Origin: Paratrimastix pyriformis
Lineage: Eukaryota > Preaxostyla > Paratrimastigidae
Direction: 5' to 3'
NCBI GenBank assembly: GCA_027972325.1
Contig: JAPMOS010000050.1
Span: 67,501 to 131,500, forward strand
DNA length: 64,000 nt
The notes below the pieces were generated by a model that saw only the letters and a list, made by a program, of their open reading frames with translations, did not search any database and was not told where the DNA came from. Below, one piece after another: positions 42,254 through 57,522 of this stretch (position 1 is the first letter of the stretch; every line of letters begins with the position of its first letter). The translations under genes were made by a program, and so were the position numbers.

Positions 42254-42963
42254 CTATAGCGTCCACAGAAACCCTGGAACATGCCATGGTTCCGGCTTCG
42301 GCTTCGCAGCAGTGGGCTCCTTCTTGCGCTTCTCCTCGCGCTGGGCCGCCCAGTTTTCAAAGGCCATCGACCGACATTTGTCAGGCGCCCACTCGAAGCG
42401 CCTTTCTCGTGCCACCACGTCGCATTCGTCGAGAGCTTGCTGCAGGGCTTCGGGGGTCTCGCCAAGGACAGAGACGTCGTCCGCGAATAGCAGACCCGGG
42501 ATGCGCTCCCTCCTGCCGGGCACCAGAACGCCGTGGCCTCGCGCCCGCAGCCTCCGCACGAGGCCGTCAATGAAGAACAGATACAGGCCCGGGGATGCCG
42601 GGCACCCCTGTCGCAGGCCACGGTGAATCTCAAAGATGGGCCCCCGTTCGCCTCGTACGACAACCGCCGCCTCGGTCTTCGCGTACATGGCCATCAGCAG
42701 GAGCAGGAGGCAGCCCCGGCAGCCACGCGCCTGCAGGATGGCCCACAAGATGTGTCGGTCGACGGTATCGTAGGCGGCACGGATGTCCAAGAAGGCTGCG
42801 TACGTGCTCAGCCTGGCCTTGCGGCGGAGGGCCACGATCTCCTGCAGGGCGATGACCTGCTGGACCGCCGAGTGCTCCCGGCGGAAGCCTCCCTGCTCCT
42901 CCGCCAGGCCCGGCTCCAGGGAGGACCGCAGCCTCCGGTCCAGGGCCAGGGCCAGCACCTTGG
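42254..42963 (-). pseudogene. Outer LINE, 3' part: reverse transcriptase
   Basis: SKVLALALDRRLRSSLEPGL, EEQGGFRREHSAVQQVIALQ, AFLDIRAAYDTVDRHILWAI, RGLRQGCPASPGLYLFFIDG and LLFADDVSVLGETPEALQQA cover the central RT motifs, with FADD at the active site. The 5' part lies at 53311-54949. It ends soon after the FADD region, so the thumb and later domains are missing here. Confidence 0.88.
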
Positions 42964-42977
42964 AGGCCACTGGGGCC
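42964..42977. repeat. Target duplication, left
   Basis: AGGCCACTGGGGCC, repeated exactly at 53297-53310. Confidence 0.85.
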
Positions 42978-43162
42978 GTGTGTGTGTGTGTGTGTGTGAT
43001 ACTTCCCGGCTTGCGCCGAGTCCGGAATCGGGCCGAAGCCCGCGGGTGACATGATCCCCCCCGGGCCGCCTTCCCGCAGGACAAGTCCTGCAGAAAGAGC
43101 ACCCCAGGGAGTTCATGGGTCGGCTACCGTCCCTCCAGGGGCGGTCTCCGCCGACTTCCGGA

Positions 43163-44200
43163 CTACAGCTCTTCTTTCATTCCTGCCTCAAATTTTTCGC
43201 ACTTCTTCCTTTGCTGAATCGCTATGAGCATCGTTTTCCTGATTCCTGCCAGCTCGCTTCCCACCTCCTTTTGAGTGTCTTCATCCACAATTCCCATTTC
43301 CGCTGCCAGTCTACATGCATTCGCGTATTCCATCTTAACACCGCACTTCGCTCTCAACCTCCTCATCACCTTCGTCACCACCGCCTCCGATATCCCCCTC
43401 CAGTTGTAAAGCGCTTCCCCATCTCTCGGGCGGCCCTCATAGTTTACCTGCACCATGCAACTCCCGGCCTCCTTCCTCAACATCGCCTCCAAAGCCCACA
43501 ACGGGGCTGGGTCCATCGGGAATCTCTCCCTAGCCCGCCCATTCTCAAACATCAGAATCCCCACATCAAACCGCGCCTTCCCCACCACTTTCCTCCCGGT
43601 GCGCCAGAAACTCGGCTCCCAAAAGGCAAAACCACCCTCCTGGATGATGAAAAGCTCACGCATCTGAATGTCCCCTTGATCGCCAAGCTCACACCGTGCT
43701 TCGGCTCACTCCCCGGCTGGATTCTGTTCGCTTTCCCTTCCCCGTACGGCACAATAACAATGCATCTAAACGCTCTTTTCCTCCTCTACCAATCGGGCTC
43801 TCCGCCCACTCTCCAATTGCTCGGAAAACCGATCCATCTCCTCCTGGGGTTATATTCCGGATTCGCATAAATCAACAAGTCCCGATTCTCCTTAAATAGC
43901 CCGTACCCATCCACCGAACCTCCCAGGAACCAGTCTTCCTTACTCGGCGTTCTATACTCTGGGAAACTGAGATCCGCATTCCCTGGGTGCGAAAACGCCA
44001 TCACCGTTAGGCTTCCCGCCTGCCTCAGCAACGAAGATATAGTGTGGGGAGTCGTCCATTGGTTCCTCAGCGTACTCATATGCGTCCGCCCCTCCTTTAC
44101 TGTCGTGCTTTTCCCTTCCTCATATCGGTCACACATCTCAGCCACCTCTGTCGAGAACCTTTCCCAAAACTGTCCCATGTTCTCGCCCGAAACCATCTCC
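43163..44200 (-). pseudogene. Inner LINE ORF2: unrecognised C-terminal region
   Basis: About 330 residues after the knuckle: NMGQFWERFSTEVAEMCDRY, NQWTTPHTISSLLRQAGSLT, NRDLLIYANPEYNPRRRWIG, then FRCIVIVPYGEGKANRIQPG and, after a frameshift near 43665, MRELFIIQEGGFAFWEPSFW and KARFDVGILMFENGRARERF, ending GMKEEL. One in-frame stop near 43786. It resembles no LINE domain I know. Confidence 0.6.
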
Positions 44201-44219
44201 CCGGGACCTCTCCATCAAT

Positions 44220-44480
44220 TGCCATAGCCTCACCTTCGTGATCTGCCTGCCCCTTATCTTCACACACTCGCCCATCGGCTCCACCCACTTCTCCTCGAGC
44301 AACTGGTCCGGGTCTTCAGCTCCCTCCGCCTTGTCCAACCACTCAATTAGCTTCACTGCATCCGCCCCTTTCCATCTCTCCCCCACACATCCCGCCATCC
44401 CTGGGCACTCAAACACCAAGTGGTTCATGTGGTCCCTCACCCCACACCAACACTTCCCATCCCCCCTCCCCGTTGATGTA
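44220..44480 (-). pseudogene. Inner LINE ORF2: Cys/His knuckle
   Basis: GKCWCGVRDHMNHLVFECPG gives CxC...H...H...C, as found after RNase H or RT in many LINEs. Followed by EWLDKAEGAEDPDQLLEEKW. Confidence 0.7.
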
Positions 44481-44596
44481 GAACCGGATGTTGGCCGTGA
44501 TATACCGCTGCAGGATTGCCATCATCGCCAGCTTCCCTGACATCTCACACCTCATCGTTTGCACGTTGATCCCTCCGTTGCGACTCTCTGCATTAA

Positions 44597-45200
44597 TCAA
44601 CACAATCTCGTTTTTCTTTTACGAGCCGCCCTCCACATTCGACTTTTCCTCCCCCATTCCTTCATCACCTCTCTGAAGTCTGTCTCCACCTCCTTCCCGT
44701 CACTTCTCCGCACCAGCTTGAATCCCCATCCTTTCTCTTCGGGCACCACGCTCGGCTCCATCTTTATGCTCCGTCCCGCAATCTTGTCTGCCAATCTGTT
44801 CCCCTCCGCATCCAGCGACGCACTAGTTTCCTGATGTCCCTTAACCCAGACCAGTCGTATCTCTCCACGATGCTCCTTCACAATCCGCTGCCCCCTCCGC
44901 AGCAGTCCCTCCGCCTTCGATTCTATCAGATCCGTTGGTTTCCACCAACCCTTTATCAGTCCCTCAACCCACCCCTTTGCCACTTTACTGTCCGTTCTCA
45001 CTTCCACATTCGCATCCTGTCCAATCCGAATAGCCTCCAGAATAGCCTCCAACTCCGCTTCATTGTTAGTCTGCCCCGACCCGAACACCTCCTCCCCGCT
45101 CTCACCGCCAGCGCCCCATTTTTAATCTCTCAATCACCGCGAACGCCGCCCGTCTTTCCTTCCGGCTTCTTGTCGCACTCCCATCAGTATAAACAACCTC
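44597..45200 (-). pseudogene. Inner LINE ORF2: RNase H
   Basis: VVYTDGSATRSRKERRAAFA holds the first catalytic Asp; QTNNEAELEAILEAIRIGQD the Glu; VRTDSKVAKGWVEGL the second Asp; and LVWVKGHQ...EGNRLADKIAG the last His/Asp motif. All four acidic sites are present. A frameshift lies between the first two motifs. Confidence 0.88.
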
Positions 45201-46258
45201 CATTCCGCCTCTGGCTCCACCACTCTTACTTCCACCTCATCACACTCCGCCATCAACTCCTCCCGCCTTTTCCACAATACCTCGTCCCACTCACCAGCCC
45301 TCGCCCTCCCCATCTTGTTCCCCCTCCCCTCCACCTGCCCTTCCGCCCTCTCTTTCTTCTCGCTCGCCTCAATCTGCATCCGACCCCCTCCTCCCCATCT
45401 TCGCTCCTTCCCTTCTTACTCTCCCCCTTTCCCACCCCATCCTCCCCTCCCATGTTTCCTCCGTTTCACCACTGCCACCTTCCCCCGACGCACTGCAACT
45501 TTGCTTGCCTCTTGACTCTTGGTTTCGCTTCCCCGACCGCCCCAACCCCCCGACTCCCCTCACTCCTTCCTTCATTCCCCTTATCTGCATTGCCTTCCTC
45601 CTTTTCCTTCTCCACTCTCCGCCTTTTCCGCCCCTCCTCCGCCGACTCCTCCTCCCGAATCCGCCTCGCCAATTGCAGATAGTCCGGACTCACCCTGTTA
45701 CCATACAGACACACCCGCTTTTTGATCGTCTCCACATACTGCGGCATCACCCCTTTCCAATGAAATCTTCCCCATGATGAGGTCCGCCACACTCCGAATC
45801 TTCCTTTCATGAGGGTCTGTCTGTGCTTCTTTGTTATCTTGTAGGCTCCGCCATCTCTTCCAGTGTCGTCGGCATGCCGTACTTCACTTCCTCCTTCAGT
45901 TTCTCACCGTCCCTCAGGATCGCCATGTCTCTCCTGTGCATCACCTGCAACGCCCCAATCACCACCCCGGCATCTTCTCCTGCCCGTGCATCTTCACCCA
46001 CTTCCCTGCATCATCCAACAGCGGCTCACGCGTCGTCCACAATTTCTGCAGCAGCACGATCTCCTCCCTCAGCACCACTCCACACCCCTGCTCGTCCGCC
46101 ATCCTCCCCAGAATTTGTGTCATCACCATCATATCATGGACATCAATCGGGTCCTTCAGCCCCATACCCCTTCCTCCTCCGGAAAGAACAGCACCTCTGC
46201 CGGGTCGCATTTCCCAATACAACCTCCGATTTCCTGAACACCCTCGCATATCTCTGCT

Positions 46259-47610
46259 TCAGTGTTTCCAAGTCCCTTGTCGGCATTGGGCACTGCCTCG
46301 CCGTGTATTGTATGTCGAGACACACTCATTAATCATTTGCACCATCAACCTCGGAGGGACCTTCTTGTCCATGAGCCTGTGCAGTCGCCCACACATTTTC
46401 TGGATCACCTTCTCCGTGTTGACCTTCATGTTCATCTCCTCATCTATCCATATCCCAAGATACCGAATTGCTCCACCCTTTGCTGCACTCTGATCTTCGA
46501 CCCTCTCCCAGATCCAAGTCCGTCTTCCCTTCACCCCGCCACACAGGTAGTCACACTTGCTCCACGACAGCTCCATACCAGCCTCTTCCACTTTCCGCCT
46601 TACCGTATTCACCAAACGGACCATCTGTTCCCTTGTTCTCGTCACCAACATAATGTCGTCCGCAAATGCCAACACCTTTACCTTCCTGCCGCTATCCAGA
46701 ATATAGCGCCTCCTGTCGTCTCACCTCCGCCAAGACTCCTCCATGAAGGAGATAAACAGCAGGCAGGACAACGGGTCCCCTTGACTAATTCCTCTCTCAA
46801 TGTCATAGCTATCCGTCAACCCGTACCCCGTGATCACCCGCGCCTTTCTCCCCTCATACAAGCTGTCCACATACCTGACAAATTCCTCTTCCACCCCCAT
46901 CCTTCTCAACCCCCTCCTGAGCGCCTCCATGTCAACTGTATCATAGGCCTTTCTTATATCTAGCGCGCACATGTGGAACTCCTTACCTCCCATAATCTTC
47001 GAGTCCGTCAACACCCCCAAAATCTCGGCAATAGGCGTCTCAATCCTCCGATCCCTCAGGAAACCAAACTGCTCCGCCCCGAATACCCCTTTTCAACGCA
47101 CCAGTCTTGAAATCTCGAGGCAATCACTACCTGCAGTCCTTTCAAAAAAACCTGTATTAAAGTTATAGGCCTTCTGCCGGCCGGATCCCCGGATGCTCCG
47201 TCTGCGATTTGGTTGCCATATAGACCGAGCTGAGTTTCAGCTCCTCAGGAACCTCAGACTTCTCCAACATCTCGTTGTATCGCCTCCCAACCACTCCTTA
47301 ATTTCGTCCTGACAAGCATGGACCATCTCCGCCGTCACTCCATCCGGGCCAGCTGCTTTCCCGTCCGGCAACGCCCCCAGTATTGGATATCATGCGTCGT
47401 CAGAGGGGCCATAATTACCCTTCCACCCACGCCTCCCGTTACCTCCTTCAGTCTTTGCCCCCGTCCCCCACCGGCAGCTTCCTTTTGCAAGCCCCGCCAT
47501 GAATCCCCACCATCCCTCTTAACCTCCGCCGGGTCCGACACCACCCTGTCCATCTTCCCCTCCGCATTTCGAGTCACGTAGGTTGTAATTGGCGCCGCGC
47601 CATCCGTCAT
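46259..47610 (-). pseudogene. Inner LINE ORF2: reverse transcriptase
   Basis: In order: ALPDGKAAGPDGVTAEMVHA, AEQFGFLRDRRIETPIAEIL, MCALDIRKAYDTVDMEALRR, YDIERGISQGDPLSCLLFIS, VLAFADDIMLVTRTREQMVR and IRYLGIWIDEEMNMKVNTEK. FADD is the catalytic pair. Several frameshifts (near 47330, 47100 and 46700). Confidence 0.88.
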
Positions 47611-47789
47611 GATACCCTTATAGATACGCTTGCGCTTTCCTCCAATGCCCTATCTCTTACCATAATGCACCAACCTCATCTTCGCCAACTGTTTCAACAT
47701 CTCCTTCCTCTTATTCAAGTCCTCCTCCGCCAGCGCTCTCCTCCTCAATTTCTTTATCCTGAAAGGCTCAAAATCTCGATCCGTATTCA

Positions 47790-48920
47790 TCACATCCCTA
47801 TAGCCAAAACGCAGCCAGCTGTTACCCGAAGAAACTCACTCATCTGTTCAAATGATGGCTCCTCCCCCTTCACAGCTGCCTCTCGCAACATTTGCGCAAC
47901 CTTCCCACGGTACTTTTCCATTTTCCCAACCATAACATCATACTCCTCCTTCTTCTTGTCCCGCAACAGTGCCTCCACCTCCGTCCGGGAAGGGCAGATG
48001 GCCACCTTCCTCCGAGCCATTTTCACCGCAGAAGGCGCCATGTTTCGGAGATCCGTTACAATCATGTGGTGATCCGTGACCGCCTGCCACTGAATCTCAT
48101 CATTCCGCCAAACAAACAAATTGTCCAGCACCCTCCCCATTGTCCCCTGCGTCGACAGACACAAATCCAACCGGGCCCTCCCCTTCCCTTCATGCTCTTC
48201 CTCTTTCGCCACCGTCCCACCCTTCCGGCTCCGGATAAAAGTTATCTCCCCCGCCTTCCCAACCATCTTCGCCACATCATACAATCCCAGTTTCTCTTGC
48301 TCCCCTCCTTCCTTAGCCCATCCGTTCGCATCTGTGTACACCACGACTCCTCTCCCATCCGACGCCCCCCCCGCCACACACTCCTCCAACCGCTCCAAGA
48401 TCACACTCCTTACCCTCACGTTCGCCTCTCCGTCTCCAGTAGGAAAATACATGTTGATGAGTCTCATCTGATTCTTCCCCTCCGTCCAGTCCATAAACAT
48501 GAGATAACCAGGAATCACCTCCGTAATCTTTCGCACTGCCACTTGCAATGTTTTTCTATACCCAATCATCACCCCCCCTCTCGGGTGCCTCTTAACAGAC
48601 TCCTCCGCCACTGAGCTCCTCCAGCACCACCCCTTCATCCATTTTTCCTGCAAAAACTCCTTGTTGTCCCTCGTTCCTTTCGTCTCCTGCAAGAGCGCTA
48701 TGTCCGTTCGACCCACCTTTAGCAAATCTTCTACATTTTTCTTTTTCCATTCCGAGCCCAGCCCCCGCACATTCCATCCGACCACCCTCACCCGATCCTC
48801 CTCTTTCCCCGGCAACCCCGCCCTCAAGTTAGCCTCCTTTTTTTCGCAGCACCACTTTTCCACCCCACAAAATTCTTCCGCCTCCGCCTTCTCATCATAC
48901 ACCCGCTCAATATCCAGCAT
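47790..48920 (-). CDS. Inner LINE ORF2: APE endonuclease
   Basis: One open frame: VRVVGWNVRGLGSEWKKKNV, DIALLQETKGTRDNKEFLQE, RHPRGGVMIGYRKTLQVAVR, MRLINMYFPTGDGEANVRVR, VVVYTDANGWAKEGGEQEKL, ARLDLCLSTQGTMGRVLDNL and AVTDHHMIVTD. These are the N, E, Y, D/N and DH motifs of apurinic-type endonucleases that nick the target for priming. The frame upstream joins the protease-like part. Confidence 0.9.
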   Translation of the reverse strand: MLDIERVYDEKAEAEEFCGVEKWCCEKKEANLRAGLPGKEEDRVRVVGWNVRGLGSEWKKKNVEDLLKVGRTDIALLQETKGTRDNKEFLQEKWMKGWCWRSSVAEESVKRHPRGGVMIGYRKTLQVAVRKITEVIPGYLMFMDWTEGKNQMRLINMYFPTGDGEANVRVRSVILERLEECVAGGASDGRGVVVYTDANGWAKEGGEQEKLGLYDVAKMVGKAGEITFIRSRKGGTVAKEEEHEGKGRARLDLCLSTQGTMGRVLDNLFVWRNDEIQWQAVTDHHMIVTDLRNMAPSAVKMARRKVAICPSRTEVEALLRDKKKEEYDVMVGKMEKYRGKVAQMLREAAVKGEEPSFEQMSEFLRVTAGCVLAIGM

Positions 48921-49157
48921 TTTCGCTTTTTGCCTCTTCTTCCTCTGCGCATCCCTTTCCCTTCCTTCTCCGCGCCTTCACTCCCTTCCCCTCCCCCGCA
49001 GGCACCCTGACTTCCGGGTAACTATCCCCCACTGCAGATAGGCTTCCCACACCCACCCCCATGCCCTGCTCCGCCCCGGCCCATCCCCGCTCCCCAGCCT
49101 TCCCACCTCCCATCTGCATCTTCACACCTCCGAACGCCGGACCCAGGGCCGACTTCC

Positions 49158-50255
49158 TCATCTTCGAAGCCTTTTCCTGCCCTCCACATACAGGAACACA
49201 TCTCCATGACCTGCTTCCTCTTCCCCAACTTCTCCGACCCTGCTGTCATTAAACCTCCACCATTGGTCTCCAATCTTTTGACCGCCACCCAGTGTCGCCC
49301 ACCCCCTTCTCCCACAAAACTCCGCCACCGCTACCATGTGGTACACCTTACCGCCCATTTCCACCACATCCGGCTGGACCCTCCATTGCCTCTTATCAAC
49401 CATCCCTTCCCTACCCCGCGTCACTTGGACGACCATAACACCCTCTGTTCCCACCACCCGCTCCTCCCTCGCATGCCAACGATCCACCCCACACCCAGGG
49501 CACCTTTTTCGTATCCTCTGATTTGAAAGGATCACCCTTCCCACAGCGTCACTCATTTTCTCGAAATCCCGCTCCAATCTCACCGTTAGATCGCTTCTCT
49601 CTCTCCGTTCCGCTGCTCATAAGCTCACACTCCTGACATGTGTCCTCTACTTCCACAGTTACCTTTGCCGCGATCCCAGACCTCCGCAACAATTCAACGA
49701 GGGCCTCCTCCGCTTCCCCATCCTGCCCTTCGTCCAAACCCCTGGTTCCCTCCCTCCACACCCCATCTTCCCACCCGGGGTCCCATGACCTCCCCGCAAT
49801 ATCTCGTACAACTCACCCACCCCCAGCCGCCTCAACCACCTGGAGGGCCGTGCTGATCCAGCACCGGTGGCCAGTGACATTAACTATTCCTCATACATTC
49901 CGCCCCCATTACCATCCTCCAGCTCTCCATCACCTTCCCCACTCCATTTCCACCTCCATAGCAATCCTGCTCCCCACCGCCTCCAATCTTTTACCGATGT
50001 CATCGTCATTACAATAAAACTCAACCAACCCAACCAGCTTTTTCAAAATTCAGCCAAGTCAATGTCAGCCCACCCCCTTTTCCACCCCTCCTTCATCCCC
50101 ACCCATCTCTTTAATCGGTCAACAATAAAATTCCAATTGGCCTGGCATGCTAAACCTTCCAAGTCCCCCAAGCGTACATTATCACTCGCATCCATGATAT
50201 CCGAGCCAGTCTCCTTTCCAAACCTCCCTGTCCCAAGAGCACTGCCGAAACTCAA
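49158..50255 (-). pseudogene. Inner LINE ORF2: ubiquitin-specific-protease-like domain
   Basis: Minus sense, in order: EGLACQANWNFIVDRLKRWV (Cys box candidate, C-x2-N as in CYxN), QDGEAEEALVELLRRSG (like QQDAxEFL), VEVEDTCQECELMSSG and RIRKRCPGCGVDRW (two CxxC zinc pairs), VMVVQVTRG (like LxIHLKRF), VYHMVAVAEFCG, RHWVAVKRLE (His box, GHY position) and DQWWRFNDSRVGEVGEEEAG, then VFLYVE. The set and order are those of USP/UCH peptidases (family C19). Frameshifts lie near 49300 (two, mutually cancelling) and 49580. In the live element it would have cut ubiquitin-like links or the polyprotein; that role is inference. Confidence 0.75.
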
Positions 50256-50399
50256 AGGAGTCTACAAGGCAAACGGCAACAAGGAAAACATTCGCACAGA
50301 CCGTAAGCAAAAGGAAGCCAGCCCCAGCCACCTGAGCCAAAGTAGTATGCCCCGATGTCGCCAGCCTGTGACGCATTCCCATCCCCGGCATGGTCCTCC

Positions 50400-50825
50400 A
50401 TCCTACCATCAAGGTTTTCCCCAAAGCCGGGGTTCTCCTCTGCTCCTTCCCTCATGAGGTTGTCCCCTTCAGCGGGGTTTTCCTCCTTCTTCTTCTTGAG
50501 GTTGTCCCCCTTGGGGTTTTCCTCCTCCGTGTCCGTCCCCACCCAGCCGATGGCGCCCAGCGATGCCCCTTGAGGTTGTCCCCGACGGCGGGGTTTTCCT
50601 CCTTCTTGAGGTTGTCCCCCTTGGGGTTTTCCTCCATCATGTCCATACCCCACCCAGCCGATGTCGCCCAGCGCTGCCCCTTGAGGTTGTCCCCGACGGC
50701 GGGTTTTCCTCTTTCTTGAGGTTGTCCCCGACGGCGGGGTTTTCCTCCTTCTTGAGGTTGTCCCCGACGGCGGGTTTTCCTTCTTGAGGTTGTCCCCTTC
50801 GGGTTTTCCTCGTACCACTCGGTGA
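50400..50825 (-). repeat. Minisatellite coding EENPKGDNLKK / EENPAVGDNLKG
   Basis: About ten units of roughly 33 bp (TTGAGGTTGTCCCC with TTTTCCTCC) with longer inserts. In one minus frame it gives alternating NPKGDNLK and NPAVGDNLKG words upstream of the protease-like domain. Confidence 0.8.
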
Positions 50826-50839
50826 GGTTTGCCTGCCAC

Positions 50840-51600
50840 ATTTTAGCCAGGTTGTCCTCGACCCTCTCTGGCCACCCCAGGGGTAACGATCCCTAGGGCA
50901 TCCCGCCGACGTAGCACAGCGGCCCCCTCCTCTCCAGCACCCGCAGGAACCGCTGCGGGTGTTAAGGGGGTCCTGGTTTGACCGTTGACCCCTTGACCGG
51001 CCCTAGCGTCACCACCAGTCCTACCGAGATCATCGATCTCAGAAAATGAGTAAACTGTAATAAATGAAAACTTACACAGACCTTCAGACATCGTCCAAAG
51101 TTGCCCATTCCTTCGGAGGTTTTGTGCAGATGCAGGCATTGGAGCTCCCATCTGCTCAGTCCAGTATTGGAATTGGATGACTGAAAAAAAGGTACACACA
51201 GACCAACCCCATTCCAGGAAAGCTCAAAACAATAACCAGACTGCCCTTGACCAGCCCTACCAAGATCAGCGGCCACATTCCTAAAAGTTTCTGAAGATGA
51301 CAAAAAGAATACCGGAAAGACAGACTCTCTCCCAAAGAACGTGCCGCATCAGCAACATCCCAGAGAAGGATCTTCCATCTGACCAGACGGTCAGACAGGC
51401 ATCTCAGGGGCCAGATATCTGAAATTCTAAGGATGAGCCGCTGCCAGACGTCCCAACAACCAACAAACCGGTAGATATTTCCGACACCAGACAGGGCCCA
51501 CCTCCGAGGCAAAGCACTCTGTCCAGCCGGGAGACTATGATCAAAGCATGATTAGAAACTCTCCACCCATCTTCCTCCATCCACAGACCAACGAGACATC
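50840..51600. other. Stretch between ORF1 and ORF2 of the inner LINE
   Basis: AT-richer than its flanks, no domain recognised. It holds two GTCTGTGT motifs (minus sense, 51081 and 51203). Confidence 0.4.
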
Positions 51601-52163
51601 GGCTAGACATACCACACCAACCTGAGGGCAGCCGCCACCCAATGCAGCCACCACACCAAGCCGGCACACCATCCAACCACCGTTGGAAAGTAGGGGCGCT
51701 CAGCCCACCAGAAAACGCGGGAGAAAACAGCCATCCCAACCCCGCCAACCCTCCTGATCCCATCTCTCTCCCGTCCACCACCGGCCCCTTCGCCCCTTCC
51801 AGAGGTCTTCCCCTTCTCCGTACCAGCATTCCCAGTTCTCATTACCAGTCTTTATCCAACCCATACGACCACGCTTCTCGCCCCTCTCTTTTTGATCAAC
51901 AAGGCCAATTCCATTTACCCTACCGTGGACCCAATTCTCTTCGACCACCGTCTGCATCCAAAAGCACCATACACATATCACTTCCTGTCTTTGCACTACC
52001 TTCTCCAATTTTACCCCACTCCACCTTCTTTTCCTTCATTCGATTGCTCCCCCGCCAACCACTCTCCTCCCCACGCCATTCCAATAGAAGGCTGTTTCTT
52101 TCCACACGCATGTCCCAGGAGCAAGAGCGTAAGAGGGTGGAAGAGAAACACAGCCCCCAACCT

Positions 52164-53226
52164 TTACTTGAACTTCTTCCCCGCATTCACCCCCACCGAC
52201 ACCTTCACCACACGCGGACGCGACTCCGCTTCAAAGCGTCGATGGCCTCCCTCTGCTCCGGGGTTGCCATGACACAAAACGTCCCGTCCCACCGCCCACT
52301 TGACCACGCCACTTCTGATCTCCAAATATCGGAGACCTCTACCACAATGTGGTGGTTCTTGAGGTACTCCTGCATCTGCTGCGGCCACTCGACACCGGCC
52401 GCACGAATAAAGGCCAAACGATGGTCCGCCCGGAGAGGCCGATCCTCCCCGGAGCGATCTGTACTATGCGCTTGCCCCGGAAGATCTCCGGGATGTGGGG
52501 CTGTCCCACCGAGCATGTCACAGACACACGCCATGCACCCGGCTGGCGAGCAGGCTTGACCCAAACTACCGGGGTGGCGATCAATAAGTCAGCGATTGCG
52601 AACAGACACTGCGCACTCGGGTTCGCTTCACGCAACCATTGGCGAACCTCCTCTTCTTTAGCTTCCAGGGGCAAACCACCCAGATGAGCCCTCATTGTAA
52701 CAAAGGTCACAGCTGAGGCCGGCCGCTCACATTCACTTCCCAGATCAGTCAGGACGGCCTGATTCCGACTTGCAAAAGCTCCAAGAATCTCCGCGGCATC
52801 GGGTCTCAGACACGTCACGCCAAAAGTTCCTTCTTCCAGGCCTTGTTGAACACGGGCCTCGCCAAGGATCTCACGAAGCTGGCATTCAAGTTCGTACCAG
52901 CTAAATTGCACAGCACTTGGCTCAAATTTAATAGCGAATCTCATTGTCTCAGCCTGTAATTCACAAAAGGCAATTGACAAACAAAGACCCAAGATGAGCC
53001 CAACAAACATCCTTGATAGGCGGACTTTCGGTAGGAAAGCCACTATCCAATTAACACAGACCATAACTTTTTCCTTCTTTTCACCCTGCTCCTCGGCCTG
53101 GCTCTTTTCGGCCACTCTTTTTTTACCAGCCGCCTCCATTCTTTGGCGATTGGCTTCAGCCTCAACACTTTCCAGCGTCAGAGGAACCGCACCAGCATCT
53201 TCAACAGAATGAGTTTCAGAAGACAT
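52164..53226 (-). pseudogene. Inner LINE ORF1
   Basis: Starts MSSETHSVEDAG 70 bases inside the insertion, followed by a charged stretch (NRQRMEAAGKKRVAEKSQAE) and later FVTMRAHLGGLPLEAKEEEV and RLAFIRAAGVEWPQQMQEYL. It probably encodes the nucleic-acid-binding partner, judged by position. A frameshift lies near 52430. A 108-nt GTCTG...ACAG segment (52954-53061) could be a retained intron. Confidence 0.6.
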
Positions 53227-53296
53227 CGTCAATTGGCCAATAGAAAAGGCGAAGATCCCAAATTCAAACACTTTCCAGGTCGGTAGGACCGGGGGA

Positions 53297-53310
53297 AGGC
53301 CACTGGGGCC
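53297..53310. repeat. Target duplication, right
   Basis: AGGCCACTGGGGCC, identical to 42964-42977. Confidence 0.85.
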
Positions 53311-54949
53311 AGGGCAATCGGGCGGTATGCGGTCGGGCTCTGGCCTCCCTTGCTCTTGTGGACCGGTACCAAGTGGGAGAGGCGCCACTGTTCCGGCCAC
53401 AGGCCCCACCGCCAGGTGAGCTCAAAGAAGAGGCGGAGGGCTTCGGTGAACGTTGACCCTGCCCGCTTCAGGAACAGCGGGGGGATGCCGTCCGGTCCCG
53501 GCGCTCCGCCACTCCGCAGATCCCCCAGGGCCAGCTCCACCTCCTCCCGAGTGAGTGGCCTGTCCATGGTGGCTGCCATCCGGCCTGCTGACGACGGCTC
53601 AAACTCGAGACTGGGTAGCGGCGGCGGTGGCCCGGGCAGCATCTCTCCAACCTTGCGGAAATGGGCCGTGAACTCCTCGAGGCCCACCCCCAGCTCCTGG
53701 TCGGCCTCTTCAGGGTGCTCCTCCCCCAAGAGCCGTGTGAGGGACCACCAGGATCGCTCCCCGAGAGGCGGAACTCGGCCATCATGCCGCTCTTCGCCGC
53801 TCGGGCCTCCCGCCGAAAGGCGCTGCGGGCTGCCTTCACACCAGGGCCTCTCCTCTGGGCCATCTTGGCCCGCCACAGATCGGCGAGCCGAGGGGTCCAC
53901 CATGCTCGGGAGGCCGCGGTGACCCGCTTCCTTCCAACCGCTTCCCTGCCAGCGCGGCGGAGAAGAGCCAGCAATTGGTCCCATCTCAACTTCAGCAGCT
54001 CTGGGAGGCCAGACTCTTGGTGTCCGCCTCCAGGCGAAGAGAGAGGTCGGCAGCCCGAGGGATGCCTCCTCCTCGAAGTGGGCCCAGTTGGCCTTGTCCA
54101 AGCACCAGGCCCACCGCGGCTTGGTGCGACCCTTGCGCCTGGGCGGGGCGGGGCGACGCGGACTGTGCCTGAGAGGTGGACAGCGCGGTGCTCGCACGCT
54201 GAATCCGGGACCTCCTGGCCCATCGGGTCCAGCAGATTGCGGCTGGCCGCCCGCGGTGCCACCACTTCCCGCGGTTGCTGGAGGCCGTCCAGCAGATAAT
54301 AATCCACCTTGGTGGATACATGCCTTAAGCCCCCAGGGTCATAGCTTGGGAGCGGGGCGTCCCCATCCTGGGCCGCGATGGTGAGCCCGGCTTGCTCAGC
54401 CAGCAGCTGCAGGAGTTCCCCTGCTCATTGCCGTTGTCCGAGGGGAGGGACATGCACATTAAAATCGCCGGCGATCACCACAGGGGCTGCAGGGGGCGCA
54501 GGGTGCGGATGCACTCGAAGAGTTCCCAGCCGTATAGGCGCCGAAGCTCCGTGGCTTAAAGTAGCATGCCCCAAAGAGAACGCCCTTGATACGACCCATA
54601 CCGTGCAGTCGTGCAGGTAGGGGGATAGACGGCGGGCTCCTTGGGCCCATGGCCCGGAGAGACCAAGGGCGACCCCGCCAGAGGGACGTTCGCCGGTCCA
54701 GCTCGCGTGGCCTTCCACAAACCAGCGGAAACCCTGGATGCGGGGGGCCTCTTGGTCGGAGAGCCAGGTCTCAGTAAGAAAGACGGCCTGGACTCCGCGG
54801 GACAGATCGGCCACCGCACGGGCACGGTGCCGTGCGCGGATGCTGGACACATTCCAGCAGAGGGCCCGAAAGTTCTCGGGAGGTGCTGGGGGAGAGCACC
54901 TCAGGTCCAAGGACGAGGGCTTGGCAGCAGGTGGGGGAGCCTCGGGCAC
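53311..54949 (-). pseudogene. Outer LINE, 5' part of ORF2: APE endonuclease and start of RT
   Basis: ALCWNVSSIRARHRARAVAD, VFLTETWLSDQEAPRIQGFR, GGVALGLSGPWAQGARRLSP and VIAGDFNVHVPPLG are APE motifs. Then VDYYLLDGL, ELLKLRWDQLLALLRRAGRE, and RT start TREEVELALGDLRSGGAPGP and PVHKSKGGQSPTAYRPIALA. Frameshifts or stops near 54425 and 53770. It continues at 42963: reading across the 14-bp duplication gives IALAPVASKVLAL. Confidence 0.87.
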
Positions 54950-55590: not shown

Positions 55591-57522
55591 CGCATGCGGC
55601 GCAGCAGGCGGGGCCAAGAGCACAGGCAGCGGGGCCCCGGGGACGGCGCCGACCCCGACGGGCCAGCCACCGAACCCCAGACGCGGACCCGAGCGGCCCG
55701 GCCGACGGCACCGACAAGCGGTGGCCCCGAGGCGCCAGCACCCGGCCGAGGGCCAGGCACCGGCGGAACAGCGGCCAAGGCGGCACCCGGCAGCGGCGCA
55801 GCAGGCGGGGCCAAGAGCACAGGCAGCGGGGGCCCCGGGGACGGCGCCGACCCCGACGGGCCAGCCACCGAACCCCCAGACGCGGACCCGAGCGGCCCGG
55901 CCGACGGCACCGACAAGCGGTGGCCCCGAGGCGCCAGCACCCGGCCGAGGGCCAGGCACCGGCGGAACAGCGGCCAAGGCGGCACCCGGCAGCGGCGCAG
56001 CAGGCGGGGCCAAGAGCACAGGCAGCAGGGGCCCGGGGACGGCGCCGACCCCGACGGGCCAGCCACCGAACCCCAGACGCGGACCCGAGCGGCCCGGCCG
56101 ACGGCACCGACAAGCGGTGGCCCCGAGGCGCCAGCACCCGGCCGAGGGCCAGGCACCGGCGGAACAGCGGCAAGGCGGCACCCGGCAGCGGCGCAGCAGG
56201 CGGGGCCAAGAGCACAGGCAGCGGGGGCCCCGGGGACGGCGCCGACCCCGACGGGCCAGCCACCGAACCCCAGACGCGGACCCGAGCGGCCCGGCCGACG
56301 GCACCGACAAGCGGCGGCCCCGAGGCGCCAGCACCCGGCCGAGGGCCAGGCACCGGCGGAACAGCGGCCAAGGCGGCACCCGGCAGCGGCGCAGCAGGCG
56401 GGGCCAAGAGCACAGGCAGCGGGGCCCCGGGGACGGCGCCGACCCCGACGGGCCAGCCACCGAACCCCAGACGCGGACCCGAGCGGCCCGGCCGACGGCA
56501 CCGACAAGCGGCGGCCCCGAGGCGCCAGCACCCGGCCGAGGGCCAGGCACCGGCGGAACAGCGGCCAAGGCGGCACCCGGCAGCGGCGCAGCAGGCGGGG
56601 CCAAGAGCACAGGCAGCGGGGGCCCCGGGGACGGCGCCGACCCCGACGGGCCAGCCACCGAACCCCCAGACGCGGACCCGAGCGGCCCGGCCGACGGCAC
56701 CGACAAGCGGCGGCCCCCCGAGGCGCCAGCACCCGGCCGAGGGCCAGGCACCGGCGGAACAGCGGCCAAGGCGGCACCCGGCAGCGGCGCAGCAGGCGGG
56801 GCCAAGAGCACAGGCAGCGGGGGCCCCGGGGACGGCGCCGACCCCGACGGGCCAGCCACCGAACCCCAGACGCGGACCCGAGCGGCCCGGCCGACGGCAC
56901 CGACAAGCGGTGGCCCCCGAGGCGCCAGCACCCGGCCGAGGGCCAGGCACCGGCGGAACAGCGGCCAAGGCGGCACCCGGCAGCGGCGCAGCAGGCGGGG
57001 CCAAGAGCACAGGCAGCGGGGGCCCCGGGGACGGCGCCGACCCCGACGGGCCAGCCACCGAACCCCAGACGCGGACCCGAGCGGCCCGGCCGACGGCACC
57101 GACAAGCGGCGGCCCCCCGAGGCGCCAGCACCCGGCCGAGGGCCAGGCACCGGCGGAACAGCGGCCAAGGCGGCACCCGGCAGCGGCGCAGCAGGCGGGG
57201 CCAAGAGCACAGGCAGCGGGGCCCCGGGCCAGCCACCGAACCCCCAGACGCGGACCCGAGCGGCCCGGCCGACGGCACCGACAAGCGGCGGCCCCCGAGG
57301 CGCCAGCACCCGGCCGAGGGCCAGGCACCGGCGGAACAGCGGCCAAGGCGGCACCCGGCAGCGGCGCAGCAGGCGGGGCCAAGAGCACAGGCAGCGGGGG
57401 CCCCGGGGACGGCGCCGACCCCGACGGGCCAGCCACCGAACCCCAGACGCGGACCCGAGCGGCCCGGCCGACGGCACCGACAAGCGGCGGCCCCCCGAGG
57501 CGCCAGCACCCGGCCGAGGGAA
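55590..57522. repeat. 198-bp tandem repeat, about 9.5 units
   Basis: CGGCGGAACA recurs at 55761, 55960, 56158, 56354, 56551, 56752, 56951, 57151 and 57329, a period of 196-201 bp with one shorter unit (178). The unit length being near a multiple of three keeps long frames open on both strands. Confidence 0.95.

Follow-up and report, generated by a model that had tools for sequence, protein, structure and literature searches.

The LINE at positions 42978-53296

We analysed a window of 64,000 nucleotides of Paratrimastix pyriformis DNA (contig JAPMOS010000050.1), in which a decayed long interspersed nuclear element (LINE) occupies positions 42978-53296 on the minus strand. The element belongs to a LINE lineage of the apurinic/apyrimidinic endonuclease (APE) type that encodes a domain with the ubiquitin-specific protease (USP, family C19) fold directly ahead of its APE and reverse transcriptase (RT), an arrangement that recurs in six subfamilies (USP-LINEs). 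On the minus strand, the window copy comprises candidate open reading frame (ORF) 1, tandem repeats, the USP region, APE, RT, RNase H and a Cys/His stretch, in this order:

53297-53310, minus: target-site duplication, 5' copy (14 bp)
42978-53296, minus: whole LINE insertion, subfamily A, decayed (10,319 bp; 14-bp target-site duplication, (CA)n 3' tail)
52339-53226, minus: candidate ORF1, start MSSETHSVED (ORF list; same ORF start in L020, L022 and L023)
50429-50797, minus: tandem repeats separating ORF1 and ORF2 (repeat detection)
49170-49937, minus: USP (C19-like) domain, broken by frameshifts and four stops (match to intact copy)
49840-49884, minus: Cys box VNVTGHRCWISTALQ (nucleophile codon 49863-49861)
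49705-49725, minus: QDGEAEE box (motif position)
49627-49638, minus: first CxxC pair, CQEC (motif position)
49491-49502, minus: second CxxC pair, CPGC (motif position)
49274-49297, minus: His box RHWVAVKR (His codon 49294-49292)
49236-49262, minus: Asp box WWRFNDSRV (Asp codon 49247-49245)
47790-48977, minus: ORF piece with APE endonuclease (Exo_endo_phos 3e-05, 24.3 bits; cut-off 24.5)
46259-47092, minus: RT in two ORF pieces (RVT_1 1.5e-10 and 2.1e-10)
44597-45121, minus: RNase H (PF00075 5.3e-14)
44138-44521, minus: ORF piece with Cys/His stretch CWCGVRDHMNHLVFEC from 44452 (sequence reading)
42964-42977, minus: target-site duplication, 3' copy (14 bp)

The limits given in the original prediction were confirmed by the 14-bp duplication at 53310-53297 and 42977-42964. 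The copies in L012, L020, L022 and L023 (L numbers denote genomic loci) share this 5' end, beginning at element nucleotides 1-3, in different flanks; the L023 copy has the 3' simple-repeat tail and no target-site duplication. The flanks of the window LINE are the two halves of an RT gene from another LINE. This second, different LINE (53297-54424 and 42254-42977, minus strand; RT with GLRQGCPASP and FADD) was split by the USP-LINE, and the LINEs are thus nested.

The assignment to LINEs follows from RVT_1 and Exo_endo_phos in one ORF and, for the window copy, from the target-site duplication and the simple-repeat 3' tail. No LTR-type integrase family appeared in the Pfam scans of USP-LINE ORFs. 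The content of APE and RNase H fits several LINE clades. The Pfam scan of candidate ORF1 (52339-53226) returned no family. The repeats at 50429-50797 consist of 36- and 110-bp units; judging from the scrambled alignment of other copies in this part, their number seems variable. After RNase H, ~1 kb of open pieces (43163-44214, minus strand) was seen, parts of which recur in L023 and L025.

The original prediction had placed a series of USP-like strings in one long ORF upstream of APE. All strings are present on the minus strand, and they are spread over three frames: QDGEAEE and CQEC share one frame, CPGC, VMVVQVTRG, VYHMVAVAEF and WWRFNDSRV share a second and RHWVAVKR sits in the third. The window USP copy is therefore frameshifted. 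It also contains one TGA, two TAG and one TAA stop (C442:116670-117437, corresponding to window 49170-49937), and this USP-LINE copy is dead. Its USP likeness is beyond chance, because the intact USP domain of another copy, used as a 261-residue query, matched 49170-49937 along its residues 1-259 with 66% identity and 320 bits.

Linkage of the USP domain to APE and RT

The genome searched was a 56-Mb assembly of 495 contigs, eukaryotic as judged from its LINEs and numerous pieces of USP genes; a search with one light-harvesting family found no match. Pfam UCH gave 61 matches, comprising full cellular-type ones and a group covering only the His half of the profile inside long ORFs. LINE USP motifs were found in 18 of the 20 UCH loci taken (L009-L026; none in L027 and L028), and 15 of the 18 had Cys, His and Asp boxes, the Cys box not being seen in L019, L020 and L024. 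Genome searches with two LINE USP domains as queries gave at least 158 and 27 matches. Among the matches listed for the first query, at least 28 are free of stops and span 240 or more of its 261 residues.

The linkage of protease and RT, which the original prediction had proposed to check genome-wide, was counted over 128 USP places. At a minimum of 51 of them, RT lay 1-4 kb downstream on the same strand, with a median gap of 1846 bp (quartiles 1810 and 1928). Opposite arrangements were seen as RT 1.5-6 kb upstream (3 places) or other-strand RT within 6 kb (4 places). The inputs were 128 USP matches (158 found, ~150 listed) and 120 of 127 matches of a companion search; the remainder consisted largely of second rows from the same place, and both searches scored part of their candidates. 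The value of 51 is a lower bound, as it draws on the matches listed and many copies are fragments.

Based on RT, the copies were grouped into subfamilies A (window, L015, L018, L021-L023), B (L016, L033), C (L010, L012), D (L029, L030), E (L032, L037) and F (L036, L038). Identity between subfamilies was 44% to 89% in RT and 24% to 58% in USP. Each subfamily has at least one copy with USP ahead of APE. In A, B, D and F, both are in one ORF; in C (L010), the USP ORF ends 27 bp ahead of the APE-RT ORF, and in E (L037), the USP domain is split between two frames, with APE in another ORF. USP, APE and RT share a single ORF in L018, L021, L030 and L033, and also in L016, where RT is incomplete; the single ORF of L038 holds USP and the start of APE. 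Since USP is encoded ahead of APE in six diverged subfamilies, and in several copies shares one ORF with APE and RT, it belongs to the LINE itself rather than to a neighbouring pseudogene, as had been predicted. Other copies retain the USP region. L032, L034, L035 and L036, which have no USP domain, are 5'-truncated or replaced upstream as far as readable; L037 and L038 keep the domain and belong to the same RT families as L032 and L036. USP-LINEs also insert into each other: a subfamily A 3' end with (CA)n tail (L031:2247-6001) abuts a subfamily C RT (L031:2-2240).

A protein search with the L016 USP region gave 0 matches at E 0.01 (1905 candidates from 5.8 billion proteins). RT-based protein searches gave 357 matches (120 listed) and 11; among these 131 proteins (the best 120 of 357, plus 11), the USP profile found nothing convincing (best E 0.042). 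Distant relatives may be missed because the protein search needs shared 5-residue words, and we do not claim that the lineage is confined to the P. pyriformis genome.

Fold, catalytic boxes and selection

Matches to the C19 family were found both with Pfam UCH and in the PDB (USP15, 2.7e-11). With the Pfam UCH profile named in the original prediction, L010 (5.3e-7), L012 (2e-7) and L015 (1.7e-5) scored over the curated cut-off; the window piece 49158-49616 by itself had no Pfam match at E 0.1. A structure model of the LINE USP (pLDDT 77, pTM 0.79) was used in fold searches, and all the matches listed, 50 from Foldseek and 50 from VIA, were USPs. In held-out tests, a profile built on five families was searched in a 287-sequence set and recovered the sixth in every case: A 2.9e-65, B 1.4e-73, C 3.8e-19, D 5.1e-12, E 2e-27 and 1.1e-11 (two pieces) and F 6.6e-23. 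The best E among 280 shuffled ORFs was 0.023. Chance resemblance or a neighbouring pseudogene, which the missing Pfam match of the window piece might suggest, has practically no probability left: it is ruled out by the same-ORF linkage, the insertion limits, the shuffle controls and the fold.

The Cys, His and Asp boxes follow the USP order in an alignment of 11 domains, in which the L037 row is without its first half (the Cys half of L037 sits in a separate piece). His, Trp and Asp are invariant in the 11 aligned domains, and Cys and the first CxxC are almost invariant. Two CxxC zinc pairs, which are not a feature of every USP, are present in A, B, C and D.

The USP domain is under purifying selection. 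The ratio of nonsynonymous to synonymous substitution (dN/dS) of USP in five near pairs was 0.17, 0.13, 0.11, 0.12 and 0.30. The four pairs with sound borders had values of 0.05-0.13 for APE and 0.07-0.27 for RT (two RT values come from 64 codons). USP is thus constrained, partly less than APE (0.11-0.30 versus 0.05-0.13). Other pairs gave 1.15 (L010/L012, five changes only) and 0.46 (L015/L018). These ratios are biased, as copies were chosen for open frames and UCH likeness. The rows 'Nterm' and 'RTpost', all D29/30 rows and L015/L021 from APE onward were dropped because of failed borders or, for APE, because L015 is frameshifted there.

In subfamily A, codon-like substitution begins close to a Met that precedes the Cys by 12 residues, and USP is therefore probably the N-terminal domain of ORF2p in this subfamily, as far as substitution patterns can tell. 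Over six pairs of four copies, substitutions at codon positions 1/2/3 were 18/9/48 with zero gap columns after the Met and 39/55/66 with 170 gap columns before it. The codon pattern was absent from +255 to +630 (302/267/310, 120 gap columns) because of an interruption in L026; once L026 was removed, the counts were 28/15/31 with zero gap columns. In L037 and L038, a Met precedes the Cys by 15 residues, and B, C and D have none so close. The string LACQANWNFIV (from 50153), earlier proposed as a Cys box, was rejected: it lies upstream of the onset of codon-like substitution, its frame is broken in L021 and L026, and the corresponding frame of L017 and L018 lacks it. The real Cys codon is 49863-49861, in the box 49884-49840.

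Possible roles and related elements

The sequences suggest that the USP-LINE may edit host ubiquitin signals on jumping. Judging from the sequences and the structure model, we lean slightly towards a tethered deubiquitinase that would spare the LINE ribonucleoprotein (RNP) from ubiquitin-dependent loss. The predicted working enzyme would stay bound to the RNP and in cis remove ubiquitin from ORF2p, ORF1p or host factors meeting the RNP. Until target-primed reverse transcription ends, the RNP would thereby escape turnover by the proteasome or restriction that depends on ubiquitin. Alternatively, the tethered deubiquitinase could work on chromatin, clearing histone or repair-factor ubiquitin at the nick and so opening or licensing the target. 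The USP domain is joined to a nicking and copying enzyme, the closest folds among the matches listed include SAGA Ubp8, USP46, USP12 and USP1, and a repair role of ubiquitin/SUMO proteases is proposed for other transposons in the accessible part of PMC2836005. The USP fold itself does not separate RNP protection from action on chromatin; we infer a ranking with RNP protection first and the target chromatin second, with perhaps a modest chance for the latter. The chances seem evenly balanced that the whole APE-LINE clade, of an age at which RT identity is down to 44%, relies on the N-terminal USP and that deubiquitination is built into its retrotransposition.

Several observations weigh against a uniformly conserved, working USP. 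Pfam UCH was over the cut-off in three of seven USP-bearing ORFs of one scan; it was below the cut-off in L016, L018, L022, L023, L033 and L037 (0.14 in L037), and scanning the L030 and L038 ORFs gave no match. L038 (F) has CAC in place of the second CxxC and YGNAG in place of the QD box. The first CxxC of L037 was not seen because the reading frame breaks at that point. In three of the four pairs that allow a comparison, USP dN/dS reached up to ~3 times the APE value. In A, B, D, E and F, the Asn preceding the Cys occupies position -6, whereas cellular USPs have it at -5. This puts the oxyanion geometry in doubt, and we regard it as unproven from the alignment. Moreover, the RT tree places D beside A+B and the USP tree places E there (L030 and L037 against L021 and L033). 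As the trees place D and E differently, the subfamilies may have exchanged 5' halves or modules. Across 15 family pairs, RT and USP identity had a Pearson correlation of 0.77, carried by the A-B pair, and a Spearman correlation of -0.12.

The odd Asn spacing and the loss of a zinc ligand and the QD box in F would also fit a non-cutting domain that binds ubiquitin or a partner and localises the RNP. We consider this unlikely, as Cys, His and Asp are aligned throughout the six subfamilies though identity drops to 24%. Processing of the element's own polyprotein is less probable still. The USP adjoins APE within one long ORF, but USPs need a ubiquitin fold in the substrate, and the ORFs scanned against Pfam yielded no ubiquitin-like family.

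LINEs with SUMO-protease-like domains are already known. Of the LINE proteases named in the original prediction, the OTU-like one of Dualen/RandI was not confirmed; the Ulp1-like one of NeSL agrees with the accessible part of PMC4640811, in which NeSL and Utopia-1_TSP carry it at the N-terminus. Like the USP-LINE, they have a ubiquitin/SUMO-type cysteine protease ahead of RT; theirs is Ulp1-like, combined with a restriction-like endonuclease (RLE) and found in nematodes, whereas the USP-LINE combines the USP fold with APE and RNase H. Dualen/RandI are LINEs with APE too, but have APE plus RLE (same source); no RLE family was found in the USP-LINE ORFs scanned, which covered some of the C-terminal part. 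According to the accessible part of PMC2836005, a Trichomonas vaginalis Transposase_11 protein carries peptidase C19. This C19 is likewise joined to a mobile-element enzyme, but to a DNA transposase and not to a LINE. The same part describes OTU or Ulp1 in Ginger1, Mutator and Helitron elements; they are mobile elements with ubiquitin/SUMO proteases as well, but DNA transposons with other protease families. Helitron2 with deubiquitinase-like domains is cited as a reference in the accessible part of PMC7599744. Cellular USPs (USP46/12, USP15/4, Ubp8) share the fold, the Cys/His/Asp order and the CxxC pairs, but have ~14-21% identity in the structural rows and are without the fusion to APE and RT.

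No LINE with a C19 domain was found in the open literature searched, including the accessible parts of PMC4640811, PMC2836005, PMC7599744, PMC3747384 and PMC12747079; an earlier report is possible because most subscription papers and Repbase Reports lay outside this search. If there is none, the conserved ubiquitin-protease fold of this LINE lineage is an independent gain of the same kind as the SUMO-protease-like domains, and suggests that retrotransposition repeatedly meets the ubiquitin system as a barrier or uses it as a tool. That a LINE lineage captured a deubiquitinase, as originally proposed, is something that we infer, as to event, time and donor. In donor tracing, the best of eight host loci with UCH matches fitted the LINE profile at 2.6e-06.

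Elsewhere in the window, positions 55596-57520 hold a GC-rich tandem array with a 197-bp unit (9.8 copies, 96% match).
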